In this document: piece by piece, positions 22,466-60,680 of the stretch
Layout of the letters: each line of letters opens with the position of its first letter
Numbering within the stretch: position 1 is the first letter of the stretch
DNA from: Earliella scabrosa
Lineage: Eukaryota; Basidiomycota; Agaricomycetes; Polyporales; Polyporaceae
NCBI GenBank assembly: GCA_022605405.1
Contig: JABYQQ010000002.1
Location: 2,232,001 to 2,296,000 of the forward strand
Direction: 5' to 3'
Length of the DNA stretch: 64,000 nucleotides
Notes under the pieces: generated by a model
The model's database searches: none
Told to the model about the DNA's origin: nothing
The model's input: the letters and a program-made list of their open reading frames with translations, nothing else
Position numbers and translations under genes: made by a program

Positions 22466-24135
22466 ACGATTATTTGAAGAATGCCCAACCTTCTGCTATC
22501 ATCTCCCTCGCCGGTCTCGTTATTCCGCTCGGTCTCGGAGCTGCCCTAGCGGTCCCGATCTACCACGAGTTCTCCGACGGGGACGCCAACTTCGGACTGT
22601 TCTGCCTGTTCATCGCTGTGGTTATCGTGCTTTGCCGCATTCTGACTCTGCTCAAACTTCTGGACACGACCGTGGGGGTGGTAACGCTATCCGTCGGTGT
22701 TGGCAATGATGGTGCGGTGTGCTATATTTGGTCTTTGCAGAACGCAGTACTGACACAGATTTGTAGTGGTCGGCTGGGTTCTTCTCGCGCTCACTGTCGC
22801 GCTCATCAACGCCTCCGATGGCCTCACCGCGCTCTGGGTGCTCCTCGCCGGTGTTGCCTACATCCTCTTCGCACTTTTCCCTCTCCGGTGGGCGTACCGC
22901 TGGCTGGCGAAGAAGAGTGGCAGTCTCGATGGTAGTACACCTTCAGCCATGATGATGACCGTTACGATCCTTGTCGTTCTTGTGTCTGCTGCTCACCTGG
23001 CTCAATCAATGTCATATCAACCTGTTTGTTCAGGGTGGATTCGTGACCGGTCTCATCATCCCGCACGATAACGGTTACGCTATCTCGCTATCTCTCTTGT
23101 TGAGAAGCTGGAAGATCTGGTCTCTATCCTCTTCCTCCCTCTGGTGAGAGTGTTCAGGCATGCCCGACACCGAACATTTACTGACCTCGTCTTCAGTTTT
23201 TCGCCCTTTCCGGTCTCCGTACTAACTTGCGCTCAACAATGGCATCACCTAGGGATATGTGGTCTTGATCTGTACTGTTGCATTCTTCTCTAAGTTCCTT
23301 GGTTGCGCCGTCACTGCCAAGTTGTGCGGTTTCAAATGGCGCGAGTCAGGTGCCATTGAAATGCTCATGGGTTGTAAGGGGTGAGTGATTCATCATTCAT
23401 TGATCAACATCTGGCTAACCGCGTCGTCGTCTCACAGCCGGGTTGAGCTGATCGCGCTCAACATTGACTTCCAGGCAGGCATTCTCGACACGCGCACATT
23501 CTCGATGTTCGTCCTGCACGCTGTGCTTACGTTCATGACGACACCTCTCACGATCCTCTTCTACCCACCGAAGTAGTGCATGAGGGCGCTCTTCCGAAGC
23601 CTACTGATACGTCCCGCGAAGAAGGCTCCAGTGCGCCAAGGGATCTTGTAGATACTGTCCAAACGTGATTTGCTGTCGTTGTCGATCGTATTGAGCAGCT
23701 TCCAGCCGTCATGACCCTCACCCAGCTGCTGAAGCCCAACTGCGCAAGCGCTCCCAGACCGCGAGCACGGCGGGTTCAATCACCAACGAGAAGGCTGCTC
23801 TTTCCGAGGCTCATGGTCTCCCTGTTCTGCCGCACGGTACGGTCAATGCCCTTTCGCCTGCTCGAGCTCACGAATCGGACGTCAGCCATCTTCAAATCGC
23901 ACGAGGCCGAGAACCTCGCATACAGCGATCCCATCCTCGCCATTCTGAAGACGTACGGCTACCTGAACCGCATGAACGTGTTCACCTGGCTCGCGGGCGT
24001 CGACTACGAAGACTTCTCCGAGAACGTCAGCCGACATACGCGTGCGACCGGGAGTCAGACCCGCGCTGCGAACGAGGTCTCCGGCGCATTGCCCTTTGAC
24101 GCGCTCTTCCAGCACAAGCGCGAGGGTGATGCTTG
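22466..24135 (+). pseudogene. KHA1: KHA1-type K+/H+ antiporter pseudogene
   Basis: A CPA2-family monovalent cation/H+ antiporter, recognisable from NAQPSAIISLAGLVIPLGLG through GGFVTGLIIPHDNGYAISL and LDTRTFSMFVLHA to the cytosolic tail (ENLAYSDPILAILKTYGYLN). It is broken in several ways. The first roughly 100 residues are missing. About 7 residues before VLCRILT are deleted. The segment equivalent to FFTDIIGVHPIF is lost. An 8-nt insertion near 23090 shifts the frame. A TAG at 23250-23252 replaces the Trp of ITWGY, and another TAG at 23574-23576 follows YPPK. The tail is joined after KREG to the repeat also found in copies A and B. Introns are still visible, so it arose from genomic DNA rather than retrocopying. 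Confidence 0.88.
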
Positions 24136-49007: not shown

Positions 49008-50547
49008 ATGCACCCTCCCACGTTCTATCAGGCTTACATGGTGATTCCAATGGACCACCCCGGGGCTGCCCGCAGGCGGCGGCTCTGGCACCTCTCCGCC
49101 TGCGCCTTTCTTTTCTTCCTCGCTCTGTACCTCCTCCGACTCGGCAGCTTCGGATATCGTCACGGTCCCCGGCGGACTCCAGTGAGTATTCGGACACCAT
49201 CCATCCCCTTGCCAGACACTCTCGCGCGTGATACATCGAGCCGATAGAACTTCGTTGTCCAGGCGGGCCTCGCCGCGGCGCACAAGTACGGGCCCTCGCA
49301 GTGCTTCGAGCTCGCGAACTGGACGGCCCCGATGGACCGTCCGGGCGAGCTCCCGTACCACGCCAGGACGACGTTCTTGCTGCCGGTGTCAGCGGAGGAG
49401 CTGCAGTTCGTGGCCGACGGGTCGCTCCAGTACGGCGACTTCGAGGTCTCCCAGGACGTCGACGTGGGCGGCACGAACGCCGTGGTCGACATCGACGTCG
49501 GCTTCCGCCACCCGGACGCCCTCGAGGAGGCGACCGTGTGCCGGACGCACCCCGCGGACAACAAGTGGGGTGTCGGTATCTTCGTGAGTCTTGAGCCCTG
49601 CGGACCGTAGTGACGGGCAGCTGATTGCGAGCTGCAGACTCCGCACTGGGGAGCCCCGCACTTGGATCGCAACCTTCGGTTCCATATTCATCTTCGTTTG
49701 CCTGCCGCCTACCCTGGGTCGCCGCTCAAGGTCAACGCGCTGAGCACGCACCTGCCTATCTTCTCGCACCACCTGCCCGAGCTCGCCGAGACGGTGTATT
49801 TCGATTTCCTCGACCTCAAGTCGCAGAACGCACCTATCAAGGCAGACGTGAGCACTCTACTCCATCCTAACCGAAGACATACATGGCACTGACTTCTATG
49901 GCATGCAGTCTCTTGCTGGGAACAGGATTTGGGCTCGCTCGGCCAACGGCGTCATTAGGGGCAGGTTTACCGCCTCGTCGCTGCTCAACCTGCACACCGT
50001 AAACGCGCCAATCAGCGCGACGGTGAGTCTCATCAACGGCGGAGAGAGCATGACCCACCTCTTCCTCAAGACAAGTAACGGGTATGGCTCTTCGCTCCAT
50101 GTACCGTACCATCATCCGCTGACAGCGACACGACGCAGCCGAATCGACAGCGAAGTCTCGCTCGTCTCGAACCAGTCCTCCACGACCGGGGGCAACTTCC
50201 ACGTCGCCGCGCGCGCGTCCAACGCGCCGCTCTCCCTGACAGTGGTCGACGCCCCGCTCGACTCTATGCTGCTCCTCGCGGCGAGCACGTCGAACTCTCC
50301 CGCGCGCGTCGCGCTCCACAAGACGTTCCAGGGCACCTTTGACCTCTCCTCGTCGGCGGTCTTCCGCCCTGAGGTCGACTGGAGCCCGGTGAACGACCCG
50401 GCGGAGCAGGACCGCCGTCGCCGGGTGAGACTCGACACGATCAAGGGCTCGCGCGTGCGTGGGGGCGTGGAGTGGGAGGAGGGCAGGGAGGAGAGGGGCA
50501 AGGTCGTCGTCGAGACGAGCAACTCGCCGCTCCGACTCGTTCTCTGA
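49008..50547 (+). CDS. DUF7330-like membrane-anchored protein, copy 3
   Basis: Exons 49008-49181, 49263-49583, 49638-49847, 49909-50081 and 50139-50547 give 428 residues. A short basic N-terminus (AARRRRLWH) precedes one membrane span (LSACAFLFFLALYLLRLG), predicting a type II signal anchor. The extracytosolic part has YGPSQCFELANWT, ATVCRTHPADNKWGVGIF, FHIHLRLPAAYPGS and LDLKSQNAPIKAD. Two DUF7330-type ends follow: TSNSPARVALHKTFQGTFDL and VVVETSNSPLRLVL. Exon phases and the lengths of the last two exons (173 and 409 nt) are identical to copy 4, so the two are a recent tandem pair. The second exon could instead start at 49248 (five extra codons). Confidence 0.82.
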
Positions 50548-51895: not shown

Positions 51896-53509
51896 ATGAA
51901 CCCTCCAGCACGCTACACCGACGACCCCGAAAAGGCCCCTCTCGGCCCGGACATGTTCTTCGTCCGCCCGCTAGCTGGTCCTCCGGCCTATCAAGCAGTT
52001 GTCTACCAGCCTCCTACACAGGTACTCCAGGACCGCCCCAGAAACACCCGCAGGCGTCGTTTCTGGCACTTCCTCGCCTGCACTTTCCTTTTCGTTACCG
52101 CGCTTCATCTCCTTTCTCGGAACAATGCCGCAAGGAACCTCCTTGTAAGTGACAGTGCTCAACTCGTGTCGACACCTTCAAACTGACCCGCTGCGATGAC
52201 TGTTGACAGCCCTATCTTGATAGTGACGAACCCAAGTACGATCCGTCGCAGTGCTTCGACACCGTCAACTGGACGGAGGGATCTCCCAGTCATCGCCACG
52301 ACTACCCCTTCCATGTGCAGACGAGTCTCACTCTCCCACTATCTGCGGCCGAGCTCTCCTTCATCGCCGACGGCTCGCTACAATTCGGCGACTTCGTAGT
52401 CTCCCAGGACCTGGACGAGGGAGCGGATGACGCCGTAGTCTTCATCGACGCCTTCTATCGCATCCCCGACGCGATGGATGAAGCGACGGTCTGCAAGACG
52501 CACCTGCAGGAGGACGAGTGGGGTCTCGGCATCTTCGTGAGTCCCTTATCTCCCATGGCTAGCGAGTATATGTGCCAACGTTGCGATACTTAGACTCCGC
52601 GCTGGCGACACCCTCGCGACTCGGAGCACGCGATCAAGTTCCATGTCCACCTCCGTCTGCCCACTGTCCCTTCCAACTCGATCCTCAAGATCAGCAGCCT
52701 GCGAACGGACCTTCCCATCTATACGCATCACCTCCCCGAGCTCGCCAACTCGGTGTACTTCCAGAACCTGCAGTTGCAGTCCAAGAACGCACCGGTCACT
52801 GTCGATGTATGTCTAGGTCTCCTAATTGCTCTCTCCGCGTATAGACTTTGCTGATTTCGCCGGCAGTCTGTGGCAGGGGACAACATCCGTGTTGGCGCGA
52901 CGAACGGCTCAATCCGCGGCTCGTTCAACACCTCGACCGTGCTCGAGCTCCGCACAGCGAACGCGCCCATCGAGGTCTTTGCCGGCCTCATGAACGGCAA
53001 CGAGCGTCCGACGACCCTCGCTCTGGAGACCAGCAACGGGTACGTCCTCACATACATTCATATAGTACCCTCCTGCCCGTCGCTCATCCATCCCCTCCAG
53101 CCGCATCGAAAGCACCGTCGCGCTCGCGTCCAACACCTCCTCCAACACGCACGGCAAGTACACCGTCAACGTCCGCACGGCCAACGCCCCGCTCCACCTC
53201 ACCTTCGTCGACGCGCCCGTCGCCTCCGCCCTCACCCTCGACGCGCACACGTCCAACTCGCCCGCCCGGGTCGTGCTCCACAAGACGTACGAGGGCGCGT
53301 TCGACCTGCTCACGTCCATGTTCTTCCGCCCGGAGGTCAAGTGGTCCCCGGTCGAGGACCCCGCGGGACGCGGGCGGCAGCGCGACGTGCGGTTCTCCAC
53401 GATTGGGCGCGGGCAGGTCCGGGGTCTTGTTGCGTGGGATGAGGAGGGCGAGAGCAGGGGCACGGTCAAGGTCGAGACCTCGAACTCGCCGCTTCAGCTG
53501 ACGCTTTAA
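51896..53509 (+). CDS. DUF7330-like membrane-anchored protein, copy 4
   Basis: Exons 51896-52144, 52210-52536, 52594-52806, 52867-53039 and 53101-53509 give 456 residues. The cytosolic N-terminus is longer than in copy 3 (PPARYTDDPEKAPLG). It is followed by RNTRRRRFWHFLACTFLFVT, the same Arg-rich pre-anchor plus span as copy 3. Downstream blocks match copy 3 closely: YDPSQCFDTVNWT; ADGSLQFGDFVVSQDLD against ADGSLQYGDFEVSQDVD; ATVCKTHLQEDEWGLGIF; LPTVPSNSILKISSLRTDLP; then TSNSPARVVLHKTYEGAFDL and VKVETSNSPLQLTL. The paired Cys residues (QCF, TVCK/R) are kept, consistent with a disulfide in an oxidising compartment. The role is unknown. Confidence 0.82.
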
Positions 53510-54227: not shown

Positions 54228-56035
54228 ATGTACTCCAGGATTAGGCTCGCGACCTTCACGGCCTCGCTGTTCGTAAGCCTCGTGGCGGGGCAGCAGCCAG
54301 CATGGGCTCAATGTATGCGCGCTCTTGTGATGGTTAGCGATAGTCGCTGAAGTGTATGCGGCTTGCGTCCAGGTGGTGGCATTGGATGGACTGGAGGAAC
54401 GACCTGCGTCGCAGGGTAAGTCTTTTCTCTGCACAGGTATGCTCCTAAGGCCGCTGACTGAATGCCGTCCGCCGCAGATCGACCTGCACGAAGCTGAATG
54501 ATTGTCAGTTTAAAGCTAAACATCATACCCATGCTGAGCGGTACCTACTCTGACACTCTGACAGACTACAGCCAGTGCATTCCAGGAGCGAATGTACCGA
54601 CGACCACATCGACGCCAACCGGTCCTACGAACGTTCCTCCTGCTCCTGGTTTGGACGAGGCGAACTTCTGGTTTAGCTTGTCAGTGAGAACCACCAATAG
54701 ACGATCACGATGACGACTCACAGATCTCCGACAGTGGCGACTCCTATACTCAGACAGGCTACAACCCATCCGGAGCCGCTCCTGCCCCCGGAAACCCACT
54801 AGGCAATCCTCCGTACCCCGTCCGTACCATCTTATGACGTCAATCACTACCCGCGGTTGACATGCGAGGCTTTACACAGGGCAACACCGCGACCGGCGGT
54901 CCAAACTGGATCGACGTCGACACCACGGTGTACAACAAGTCGCTCGTCCTCACCTACAACTACGCGTACGGGGGCGCGACCATCGACCCTGCGCTCGTCC
55001 CGCCGTACTCGCCGTCGATCGCGACCCTCGTCGACCAAGTGAACCAGTTCCTAAATGGGCCCGCGAAGAAACCGGCAAACGCCCCATGGACGAGCGAGAA
55101 CGCGCTGTTATCGGTGTGGATCGGGATCAACGACATCGGGACCACGTACTCCCAGGGAGGAGACCGCGATGCGTAAGTCGGGCTTGGGGCATGGCGGGAG
55201 AGCGTTCGGGAGACGGATTGCTGACCACCGGGCGCGGATTCGCAGGTTCTCGGACCGGCTTATGGACGCGTACTTCGCTCAGGTCCAGAAACTCGTGAGT
55301 TGCAACGCGGCCGTATTCCCATGACCGTTAGCTGACGTGCTTTCGTCCGTGTGCAGTAGTATGCACATGCGTAGTGTAGCCGTTCCGGATGTGGACTGAC
55401 TGTACGGCACGCTCGCAGTAACGTCGGCGCGAGGAACTTCCTCTTCATTAACGTTCCGCCTGTGGATCGGTCCCCGCTGGTCAGTCTTCGCAGTCGTTCG
55501 CGAAGCCAAGATGCCCACCGTGACTTGCTTCCCTTCAACAGATGATCTCGCAAGGCACTAATGCGCAGGCTGCCGAGAAGAGGGTCATCGCCGGCTACAA
55601 CTCGAAACTCGCAGCTCGTGCAGCTGCGTTCAAGGCTGCGAACTCTGGCGTGAGTGATGCCGGTAGTGAACGGAGGTACTGCCACTGACCGCGCAATAGG
55701 TGAACACGTGGTTCTGGGACTCCGCTGCCACCTTCACCCGGATTTTGGACAGCCCAACCCAATACGGGTTCTCCGACGCGACCTCTGTCGGGAACTCAAG
55801 GAGCTTCTGGGGGTTCGTACATCAGCTGCAACTTTCACCTGTGGGTTTTATGAACTGACTTTGAACCCGTCCGACGCACGTTCTTGCGCATGCAGCGACG
55901 TCTACCACCCATCCAGTGCGTCCATCATGGCAACGTCGCCCCAGATCCAGTGACTGACCACCTTGTATGACAGGCGCAGCACATCAGATCTTTGGACAAG
56001 AGGTCGCAGAGGTCCTCTCCGACGCAATCTGGTGA
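54228..56035 (+). CDS. Secreted CBM1-CE16 acetylesterase, copy A
   Basis: SGNH-type esterase that removes acetyl groups from hemicellulose fragments and is targeted to cellulose. Exons 54228-54312, 54373-54415, 54478-54503, 54565-54679, 54735-54819, 54880-55172, 55246-55294, 55357-55358, 55419-55479, 55542-55649, 55700-55812, 55896-55915 and 55974-56035 total 1062 nt, 353 residues. Signal peptide MYSRIRLATFTASLFVSLVA; CBM1 (CGGIGWTGGTTC to LNDYYSQCIPG); Thr/Pro linker; catalytic domain with FGDSYTQTG (Ser), NYAYGGATI, WIGINDIG (Asn) and DVYHPSS (Asp-x-x-His). Exon 8 is two nucleotides long (separate entry). Without it, codon 233 would be a stop. Donors at 54504, 54680, 54820 and 55480 are GTCAGT or GTCCGT, a recurrent weak type here. 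Confidence 0.9.
55357..55358 (+). other. 2-nt micro-exon (TA) of CE16 copy A
   Basis: The bases read cag|TA|gtatgc. After the CTC (Leu) codon ending at 55294, direct splicing to either acceptor gives an in-frame stop: TAG after 55356, or TAA after 55418. Inserting TA and then splicing to T at 55419 yields TAT (Tyr) and continues NVGARNFLFINVPP, the family consensus. Flanking introns are 62 and 60 nt, normal here. Confidence 0.8.
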
Positions 56036-56636: not shown

Positions 56637-58437
56637 ATGTACTCGAAACTCGGCTTCGCGGCGTTTGCGTCCGTCGTCTTCGTGAGGCTCGCGGCGGCGC
56701 AGCAGCCGACCTGGGCACAATGTACGTCGGTCCTACCAGTCTTGCGAGCGTCCGTCCAGTTCGTGAACGCGAGAGTGGAGTGCTGATATGCTTGGCTTGG
56801 TTGCGCGCTTCCAGGCGGCGGAATTGGCTGGACCGGAGGAACGACTTGCGTCTCTGGGTTCGTCTTGCCTCCGTTTCCAGCTTGTGTGCCGACGTGATAT
56901 TGACCGAGACGGCGCAGAACGACTTGCACGAAGCTCAACGACTGTAAGCCCTGCATTGTACATAATTGTATGTTGAAGACAACGCTCACTGCGGGTAATC
57001 CCCATGGCGATAGGGTACAGCCAGTGCATTCCTGGTGGGGCGACCACGCCGACCACGACCTCGACGCCTCCCGGCCCTACGAGCGCGCCGCCGGGAGTGG
57101 AGAAGGCAAACTTCTGGTTCAGTTTGTGAGCGATGGTCTATGCACGCGCATTGAAGAGGCACTCACCAACATATTCTCAACAGCGGTGACTCTTACACTC
57201 AGACGGGCTTCAGCCCATCTGGGGACGTTCCCGCGCCCGGAAACCCGCTGGGCAACCCGCCGTATCCGGTGCGTACCTGCCGCCAACTGGGCAGTAGACA
57301 CGACTTCACGTGCATCGCAGGGGTGGACGGCCGTTGGAGGCGTGAACTGGGTCGACGTCCAAACGACCGTGCACAACAAGTCGCTCCTCCTGACGTACAA
57401 CTACGCATACGGCGGCGCGACGATCAACGCGTCGCTCGTGCAGCCGTACGAGCCGACTGTGCTGTCGCTCATTGACCAGGTGAACCAGTTCATGGACCAG
57501 GCGGCGGACAAGCCCGCGTTTGCACCGTGGACGAGCGAGAACGCGTTGTTCTCCGTCTGGATCGGCATCAACGATATTGGAAACAGCTACTACCAGAGCG
57601 GAGATCGTGATGCGTGAGTATTGAGTGCAGGGTACGTAGGCTCGGATTGCTGACCTTGCGGTGCTCATTGCAGCTTCGCGGATGTGTTAATGGACTCGTA
57701 CTTCGGCCAGGTTCAGAAGCTCGTAAGTGAGCATATTTCTGATAGTGTACCACGTACTGACGAGTCCATTACACCCCACAGTAGTGCGCACATCCGCTCG
57801 GGAAATGTGCTTTCGTGATCGAGCTAATTGCGTGCTTGTAGTGACGTCGGCGCGAGGAACTTCCTCTTCGTCAACGTGCCGCCTATTGAGCGGTCGCCGT
57901 TGGTCAGTTTCACGTATCACGGATCTATTGCGAGGTGACTCACGGGTTTGTACCATGCACTAGATGCTGGCCCAAAGCGCAGACGCGCAGGCCCTGGAGA
58001 AGAAAGTCATCGCTGGCTACAACGCAAAGTTGGTGTCCCGTGTTGCGGCACTTAAAGCCGCAAACTCTGGGGTAAGTGTCCAAAGGTGCCTCGAAGGACC
58101 TATGCCGACATGTATACGCAGGTCAAGACGTGGATCTGGGACTCGAACGCCGCGTTCACCAAGGTCTTGGACAACCCGACTCAGTTTGGCTTCGTCGACG
58201 CGACATCGTTTGGAGGCGAAAAGAGCTTCTGGGGGTGAGTGAATCCTGGAGTTTCGGAGCTCATTTACTCACAGTGTCGTCGCGGTCTCATCATGAATAC
58301 AGCAACAACTACCACCCGTCCAGTATGTCTGCCCTTCCTACGCAGACCTGGCATCACTCACCAACCGCTTCACAGGCGCTGCGCACGAGATCTTCGGACA
58401 AAACGTCGCCGACGTTCTCGCCGACTCGATCTGGTAA
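56637..58437 (+). CDS. Secreted CBM1-CE16 acetylesterase, copy B
   Basis: Tandem duplicate of copy A, 352 residues. Exons 56637-56721, 56815-56857, 56918-56943, 57014-57125, 57184-57268, 57321-57613, 57674-57722, 57782-57783, 57842-57902, 57964-58071, 58122-58234, 58303-58322 and 58376-58437. Twelve of the thirteen exon lengths equal those of copy A; only the linker exon differs (112 against 115 nt). Signal peptide, CBM1 (CGGIGWTGGTTC ... LNDWYSQCIPG), FGDSYTQTG, NYAYGGATI and WIGIND are all present. The last block reads GNNYHPSS, so Asn stands three residues before the catalytic His where copy A has Asp. The 2-nt exon is conserved. The intron at 56722-56814 (93 nt) is longer than in copy A. 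Confidence 0.9.
57782..57783 (+). other. 2-nt micro-exon (TA) of CE16 copy B
   Basis: The bases read cag|TA|gtgcgc, at the same place as in copy A although the neighbouring introns have diverged almost completely. It joins CTC to T|GAC to give Leu-Tyr-Asp-Val-Gly-Ala-Arg. Skipping it gives an immediate TGA stop. Confidence 0.82.
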
Positions 58438-58808: not shown

Positions 58809-60680
58809 ATGCTGCAGGCTGCATTCAGGTCCCCGGCGGCGCGCAGCTTCGCGTACCAGTCAGTGCGATGCATGGCCTCCAAGCCGCCCCCCAAGAAGCC
58901 GAGGGCTCAGGCTGCACCGACGGGCTCGACACCCGCTCCTCCCGCTCCTCCCCCTCCTCCGCCGCCTTCGTCTGCAGCCAACCCGACGGACCCAGCGGAG
59001 GCACCTAAGCCTCTACCGAGCTCCTCGATTGTGCCGAGCCTGGACTTCTCGCCTGGGGAGGACGAGGGCCCGAGGCAGGAGCGGACGGGCGCGCGGTCCT
59101 CCAAGGACTCGCTGTCGAGTATCGAGCGGCGGCGGCGGTTCTTGGGACGCGTCACGCTCGCGATGATGCTCGCGGGTGCGGGTGCGGCGACGTGGGCGAT
59201 GGGGCGAGAGTGGGACGAGGAGGAGCTGAGGGCGAAGAAGATGGTACGTGTCGGTCGGAACATGCAATGACTGGCTGATGATGACACGGCTCATCTCTAC
59301 CAGACTCGCGAGGAGGCGACCCATTCGCGGTGGGAGCGGACAAAGGCGAGGTTTACGGGATTCTTCGACGTGCGTCTCCTCGGTCACTGTTCAGGCTACG
59401 TGTGTCTGAATGTGTGGTGCTCGTTTGCCAGACCTTCACCGAGCCATTATGGCCCGAGCTCCTTCCTCCACCTTTGCAGGGGCACATGCACCGACCATAT
59501 ACACTGCTTCTGTCTGTTGATGACCTCCTCGTCACCTCAACCTGGGATGTGAGTGTCTACCGACGTCTGATACTATCCGTGACATTGAACGTGTCGGATA
59601 GCGCAAACACGGGTGGCGGACAGCAAAACGACCCGGCGTCGACTATTTCCTGGCCTATCTATCGCAGTTCTACGAGATCGTCATCTTCACCACCCAGTAC
59701 CACTACGTACGTCCTTTCCCCAAACAAATATCGCGGGCGGACGTGGGCCTCACACACTGAAACGCGCCACAGACCGCCATGCCCATCATAGACAAGCTCG
59801 ACCCATACCAGTTCTACATAATCCACAGGCTATTCCGCGACGCCTGCCGTTCAGAGAAGGGCGGCACGCCCGTGAAGGATCTCAAGTACCTCAACCGCGA
59901 CCTATCCAAGGTCATCCTCCTCGACACGCACCCAGAGCACGTCACCCCCAACCCCGAGAACGCGGTCATCCTTCCGAAGTGGACCGGGGACCCGAAGGAC
60001 CGAGGGCTGATCGCCATGATCCCCTTCCTCGAGTGTAAGTCCCTCCCTGTCACATCCGTGTTTCGAACGCATGTCGTGGGCTCACATGGCATCTCATCTC
60101 CTACAGCCATCGCGATCTTCAAGACGCCCGACGTGCGGCCCATCCTCCAGGCCTATGAGGGCAAGAACATCCCGATCGAGTACGCGAAGAACGAGGCCGA
60201 GATGAAGCGCAAGCACCTGGAAGAGTGGGAGCACAGCCGCAAGGGTCTCTCGCGCGGCGGGCTCACGCTCAGCAGCCTCTTCGGCGGTTCAGAGCAGGTA
60301 CGTGCCCCGATCTCCCCCACCTCTCATTCCCTCCCCCTCCCCTCTCCTTCACCTACTCAATCACCCACCAACAACTGACCCGTTCGCGCCACCATCATTG
60401 TTTCCAGCCGTCAGCCGCATCCCAGGCGCCGCTCACCTACCTCGAGCAGAAGCGGCTCGAGGCGCAGCGGCAGTACCTCGAGGAGCAGGAGTACCTCCGG
60501 CAGAACAAGGAGCAGTTCGACCGCCTCATCAAGGAGGAGCAGGAGGCGATGGCGCGCGAGATGCCCTCCACCTTCTGGGGCGCCGCCCAAGCCATCCTTG
60601 CAGGAGGACCGCAGCCGCCCCCGCCCCCGCCGCAACAGCCCGCGTCGCAAGCAGAGGGGACGACTGCCGCAAAGCAGTAG
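58809..60680 (+). CDS. TIM50: Mitochondrial import inner membrane translocase subunit Tim50
   Basis: Receptor of the TIM23 complex that hands presequence proteins from the outer to the inner mitochondrial membrane. Exons 58809-59243, 59304-59369, 59432-59548, 59602-59706, 59773-60034, 60107-60297 and 60408-60680 give 482 residues. Arg-rich presequence ([20 protein letters not shown]); a Pro-rich matrix segment (a run of nine Pro with Ala); one inner-membrane span at about 115-132 ([15 protein letters not shown]); then the FCP1/NIF-like domain: [49 protein letters not shown] and [18 protein letters not shown]. The phosphatase DxDx(T/V) site is not intact (SVDDL), as expected for the non-catalytic Tim50. 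The C-terminal extension is Gln/Glu-rich coiled coil and ends in polyproline. Confidence 0.95.

Follow-up and report, generated by a model that had tools for sequence, protein, structure and literature searches.

In the wood-rot fungus Earliella scabrosa (Polyporales), two adjacent genes for a predicted cell-wall-degrading esterase and a third copy in another part of the genome very probably contain a real coding exon of only two nucleotides. Genes 1 and 2 form a tandem pair within the analyzed window, a stretch of 64,000 nucleotides that is part of a 51.7-Mb genome assembled in 48 contigs. Pfam reported CBM_1 and Lipase_GDSL above the cut-off in both proteins, giving them the combination of CBM_1 with a GDSL/SGNH domain, and homologues found by protein search are annotated as "carbohydrate esterase family 16". 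Both are predicted to be CE16 acetyl esterases with a CBM1 domain. The positions of the exon and its flanks are listed in Table 1.

Table 1. Genes, exons, introns and branch-site-like motifs around the two-nucleotide exon (window positions unless a contig is given; motif distances are relative to the acceptor).
Feature	Position	Strand	Remarks
CBM1-CE16 esterase gene 1	54228..56035	+	13 exons, 353 aa; spliced model; Pfam
Gene 1 exon 7	55246..55294	+	ends ...QKL, phase 0
Gene 1 intron 7	55295..55356	+	62 nt, gtgagt..gtgcag
Gene 1 intron 7 CTGAC branch-site-like motif	55332..55336	+	at -25
Gene 1 exon 8 (TA)	55357..55358	+	Tyr codon bases 1-2
Gene 1 intron 8	55359..55418	+	60 nt, gtatgc..tcgcag
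Gene 1 intron 8 CTGAC branch-site-like motif	55396..55400	+	at -23
Gene 1 exon 9	55419..55479	+	first base T is Tyr codon base 3
CBM1-CE16 esterase gene 2	56637..58437	+	13 exons, 352 aa; spliced model; Pfam
Gene 2 exon 7	57674..57722	+	ends ...QKL, phase 0
Gene 2 intron 7	57723..57781	+	59 nt, gtaagt..ccacag
Gene 2 intron 7 CTGAC branch-site-like motif	57757..57761	+	at -25
Gene 2 exon 8 (TA)	57782..57783	+	Tyr codon bases 1-2
Gene 2 intron 8	57784..57841	+	58 nt, gtgcgc..ttgtag
Gene 2 intron 8 CTAAT branch-site-like motif	57824..57828	+	at -18
Gene 2 exon 9	57842..57902	+	first base T is Tyr codon base 3
Third CBM1-CE16 paralogue (L007, L009)	contig C1, ~4160.8-4162.6 kb	minus	whole-genome search

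The first-pass annotation had placed an exon consisting of the bases TA at 55357-55358 and 57782-57783, and both positions proved exact. Set between AG and GT, TA restores the run QKL-Y-[ND]-VGAR in genes 1 and 2, as exon 9 continues after its initial T with AAC or GAC and then with GTC GGC GCG. The frame arithmetic that had been put forward also held: with TA included, the coding length amounts to 1062 nt in gene 1 and 1059 nt in gene 2 without any internal stop, and with TA skipped both genes read KL followed directly by a stop codon (TAA or TGA) at the junction.

A whole-genome search returned 43 matches, 30 of them given as loci; of these we read the three CBM1-CE16 copies and, at seven other loci, six more genes. 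The third copy reads CTC / gtaagc..ctatag / TT / gtaagg..taccag / C AAC, so that its two-nucleotide exon is TT and the restored codon is TTC for Phe. When this exon is skipped, the shifted frame stays open for 15 codons before it reaches a stop; the immediate stop at the skip junction is thus a property of genes 1 and 2 that does not extend to the third copy. In all three genes, AG precedes the two bases, GT follows them, and two separate ordinary introns lie on either side. The layout is therefore conserved among the three CBM1-CE16 copies of one genome, which share ancestry and hence do not count as independent trials. Of the six more distant CE16 genes of E. scabrosa that were read, four have an uninterrupted LY..GAR run, and in the other two (L024 and L033), where LY..GAR was not matched, an uninterrupted Tyr codon was found by eye in a YNHHLRG setting.

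Relatives were collected as the union of the best 120 matches from each of three protein searches (979, 590 and 1266 passed), which gave 136 nearest relatives. We divided them into 20 proteins from contigs shorter than 4 kb (source tags jgi and lgn, as we read them) and 116 genome-derived models from longer contigs. Ten of the short contigs leave less than 350 nt beside the coding part, too little for about twelve introns, and are therefore close to cDNA. At the site of the exon, the short-contig homologues have Tyr in 18 cases, Phe in one and Leu in one, with no Ser, Gly or Val among them; the ten tightest show nine Tyr and one Phe and no indel. Solved structures also exist for relatives; in the three alignments shown, which are to variants of a single protein, the exon-8 codon corresponds to Tyr. 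A search for the DNA of relatives at the site, with the gene 2 protein as query, gave two viral-contig and 38 genome-contig stretches that matched the pattern, none of which encodes a relative.

The genome-derived models look very different at this site. An indel within six residues of it was present in 65 of the 116 genome-derived models compared to none of the 20 short-contig homologues (Fisher, P = 5.7e-7) and none of the ten tightest ones (P = 4.7e-4). Gene callers had been expected to stumble at such an exon, and this is what we see in the relatives. An alignment of 101 genome-derived and 19 short-contig proteins, which was the first we made, yielded site indels in 58/101 and 0/19, and the next worst junction reached 11/101. 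A second alignment gave indels at junction 11 in 49 of 116 genome-derived and 8 of 20 short-contig proteins; raw counts thus vary with the alignment, and since the indels at junction 11 also occur in short contigs, they are not specific to gene prediction.

Additionally, the damaged models carry a recognizable signature. Thirteen of the 116 genome-derived models lacked the anchor motif and 13 could not be parsed for Val or Ser; among the 90 that were left, 48 were of family length and 42 had an insertion. The family-length models have Tyr (43), Val (4) or Phe (1) at the site, and the 43 with Tyr may or may not have been built with a two-nucleotide exon. Among the insertion models, Ser stands in the Tyr column in 23 (background 10.2%, binomial P = 9e-13), Val comes first after exon 7 in 24 (background 6.4%, binomial P = 3e-18), and 12 of the 42 show both, although these models are not independent, since some come from related species or from the same pipelines. 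Such a Val can be read from GTN at a retained phase-0 donor, and such a Ser from AG followed by T or C at a retained phase-2 acceptor. With this donor and this acceptor, a gene lacks two bases if no small exon separates them. The 12 models with both signatures include Phellopilus (Hymenochaetales) and Pleurotus (Agaricales), and a Punctularia (Corticiales) model has the Ser signature without Val. These scars suggest that Agaricomycetes share the two-nucleotide exon, and it is likely the reason why many published related genes look damaged. Within Trametes, seven public models (P0005, P0008 and P0011-P0015) differ at the site, with Tyr, Phe, a deletion and four unlike inserts, as if one common gene structure had been annotated wrongly.

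Inclusion of TA had been described as the only in-frame solution. This was overstated, as other stop-free paths could be enumerated in all three genes. Counting GT-AG introns of at least 40 nt, we found three single-intron and 16 two-intron paths free of stops in gene 1, and one single-intron and two two-intron paths each in gene 2 and the third copy. A separate count that allowed GC donors raised the two-intron paths to 32, 14 and 15 (gene 1, gene 2 and third copy), with 2, 2 and 1 of family length. The two-nucleotide exon is the sole family-length two-intron path common to the three genes and the sole one that keeps QKL. It is thus needed to preserve both the frame and the conserved motif, since the other stop-free paths at family length lose QKL.

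Recursive (ratchet) splice sites and stwintrons also bring an acceptor and a donor nearly into contact and are removed stepwise, leaving no bases in the mRNA; unlike them, the CE16 exon must leave two. One could nevertheless suppose that splicing takes out one long intron, or a stwintron (a nested twin intron), without any exon in between, in which case the residue after Leu is not Tyr. With QKL and [ND]VGAR kept, the loss of one contiguous block can hold the frame at family length and then places only Ser, Gly or Val at the site; neither a single intron nor a stwintron could therefore yield a codon for Tyr or Phe. A zero-nucleotide recursive site or stwintron, from which no bases are retained, accordingly does not fit these genes, provided that the protein is of family type. 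Val does occur, in the four family-length models mentioned above and in P0016, the public protein of the third copy, where it comes with an AA-AG intron. However, no exact model with GT-AG or GC-AG introns yields P0016 as published. One model appears when AA donors are allowed, and its 124-nt AA-AG intron starts two bases inside the donor, where an aligner would leave two extra cDNA bases that it could not place; the junction would then be the trace of these bases. When the site in P0016 is set to Phe, there is one exact GT-AG solution, and it has the two-nucleotide exon. None of the three genes offers a family-length single-intron path with GT-AG or GC-AG ends, and a single intron across the site would measure 119-126 nt as compared to 50-93 nt in 30 other introns of the three genes. 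With Tyr, Phe or Leu in all 20 short-contig homologues as well, we consider removal as one intron very unlikely.

We consider it extremely improbable that the exon is longer, or that part of an intron is retained, so that residues at the site are changed or added. Gene 1 would permit a stop-free exon of 11 or 14 nt, gene 2 and the third copy would permit partial retention, and residues are inserted at the site in the 42 public models of relatives described above. Yet these inserts are unlike in length and sequence, the short-contig homologues are free of indels there (0/20), and besides the two-nucleotide exon no listed path (with GT donors, or at family length with GC donors) is common to the three paralogues.

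No near-identical E. scabrosa protein was present for genes 1 and 2 among the best 120 of 979 and the best 120 of 1266 matches, and the only E. scabrosa match in these best-120 lists was the protein of the third copy. As these searches show only models of 0.55-1.75x the query length, genes 1 and 2 may have no public model, or one that is split or fused. That the genes are instead decaying copies whose region is not translated, as the stop on skipping in genes 1 and 2 and the missing public proteins might be taken to indicate, has next to no chance of being right, since none of the three copies has a broken frame or splice site elsewhere and both coding halves are under purifying selection. For the three pairs, dN/dS is 0.084-0.143 over exons 1-7 and 0.085-0.176 over exons 9-13, at dS of 1.06-1.74 overall and of 1.06-1.18 for exons 9-13. 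Exons 9-13 are in frame with exons 1-7 only via the two extra bases.

The six introns that flank the two-nucleotide exon in the three genes are 58-64 nt long, compared to the 50-93 nt of the 30 other introns. Intron 7 of each copy has CTGAC at -25, and intron 8 has CTRAY at -23, -18 and -23 (gene 1, gene 2 and third copy). Altogether, CTRAY lies 15-30 nt upstream of the acceptor in 6/6 flanking introns versus 11/30 others, and since so few of the others have it, CTRAY is no strict requirement of these introns. The donors of intron 7 are strong (6.7-9.1 bits), whereas those of intron 8 are weak (3.8, 6.0 and 3.2, against a mean of 7.65 with s.d. 1.39 in other introns).

Dinucleotide shuffles of each gap served as a chance estimate (gene 1, gene 2 and third copy in this order). 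A sense two-nucleotide exon of the form ag-NN-gt, flanked by introns of 45 nt or more, arose in 15.8, 11.4 and 10.4% of shuffles, and one coding for Tyr or Phe in 3.0, 2.1 and 1.3%. With introns of 50-93 nt and CTRAY 15-30 nt before both acceptors as further conditions, 1, 1 and 2 of 40,000 shuffles remained; these figures are a guide, as the conditions were picked post hoc, the copies are related, and CTRAY is present in only 11 of 30 other introns.

Heavy divergence of the flanking introns had also been claimed, which we can confirm for intron 7 in all pairs. Compared to end-fixed shuffles (200 per pair), 82, 82 and 133 shuffles scored as high as the three copy pairs, so that there is no likeness beyond shuffled sequence. 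For intron 8, the result depended on the pair: gene 1 and gene 2 retain a weak likeness (14/200), gene 2 and the third copy none (159/200), but gene 1 and the third copy are still clearly similar (0/200 shuffles as high).

We propose that these genes contain two ordinary short introns, two bases apart within one codon, with intron 7 in phase 0 and intron 8 in phase 2. Each would be recognized by intron definition, as a unit that supplies its own donor, branch site and acceptor. Because each intron has the signals it needs, intron definition would be enough, and the size of the exon would be no barrier to recognition. Introns 7 and 8 would be removed stepwise, one after the other, because the intron 7 acceptor and the intron 8 donor are too close to be occupied together. 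Intron 7 would leave first by a modest preference, given its strong donors and the weak donors of intron 8. The two retained bases would then form an aromatic codon with the first base of exon 9, TA+T for Tyr in genes 1 and 2 and TT+C for Phe in the third copy. We infer that the spliceosome indeed processes the transcripts in this order and that the exon is used constitutively. Recursive or intron-definition splicing had earlier been inferred to be required; intron definition with stepwise removal appears to suffice. With the third paralogue, the homologues and the annotation scars now adding support, a spliced two-nucleotide exon, as originally suggested, is the best explanation.

Exons of this size are not without precedent. 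The closest case is a 1-nt exon in Fusarium CYP621A, which is backed by SRA reads (Nelson and Syed 2026, PMC12940212). There too, two fungal introns enclose an ultra-small exon within a conserved motif; it was detected because two exons failed to join in frame and was argued from an over-long intron and an intronless relative (PMC12940212), as here. The Fusarium exon is one base in a P450 gene of Ascomycota, supported by SRA reads (PMC12940212), whereas the E. scabrosa exon is two bases in a CE16 esterase of Basidiomycota, occurs in three paralogues of one genome, and is predicted from the DNA sequence. In Arabidopsis and other plants, 1-nt exons have been experimentally shown in APC11 (PMC4674806) and in APC11 and VPS55 (PMC8831610). 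Like the CE16 exon, these are conserved exons of less than 3 nt that are absent from reference annotations, but they are plant exons of 1 nt with experimental proof. For the APC11 exon, Guo and Liu proposed stepwise intron-definition splicing (PMC4674806), the same reasoning on mechanism that we follow here. Internal micro-exons of 2-5 nt in Arabidopsis, Drosophila and human, as cited in PMC12940212, belong to the same size class in other kingdoms. Small exons of fungal genes also include the micro-exons of Phanerochaete P450 genes (PMC1184071) and of Trichoderma Xlr2 (PMC11121469), which are larger, with a minimum of 6 bp and a size of 20 nt, respectively. Our search of titles and abstract beginnings, in a limited collection and with a limited set of wordings, found no two-nucleotide exon in a CE16 or basidiomycete gene. 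Exons of about 2 nt were thus already known from these sources, including the 1-nt exon of Fusarium (PMC12940212); the CE16 case adds three paralogues and, apparently, old age and damage to annotations.

The surroundings of the pair contain several other features. Downstream of gene 2 lies a Tim50-like gene (window 58809-60040), whose product, named from its translations, we take to be the mitochondrial import protein Tim50. A tRNA-Glu (ctc) gene is present on the minus strand at 23860-23950. Upstream, two ORFs (49903-50547 and 52870-53442) form a second apparent tandem pair and by eye have NGxIRGxF-like and NAPI motifs in common; the region around the CE16 genes may therefore be rich in local duplications.

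The exon is probably ancient. It would date from the early Agaricomycetes, and several orders (Polyporales, Agaricales, Hymenochaetales, perhaps Corticiales and Russulales) would still have it in their CBM1-CE16 genes. A change from Tyr to Phe inside the exon would be tolerated, and the exon would cause the damage that affects over half of the closest published models of this enzyme. Tiny exons can, moreover, be suspected from annotation scars alone, with Val marking a retained donor GT and Ser a retained acceptor AG. If the exon is real, these genes would provide a multi-copy, apparently old natural series for the ordered, error-free splicing of short fungal introns that lie two bases from each other, which the isolated examples in plants and Fusarium leave unanswered. 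It would likewise account for a systematic fault in the public models of a secreted plant-cell-wall enzyme.
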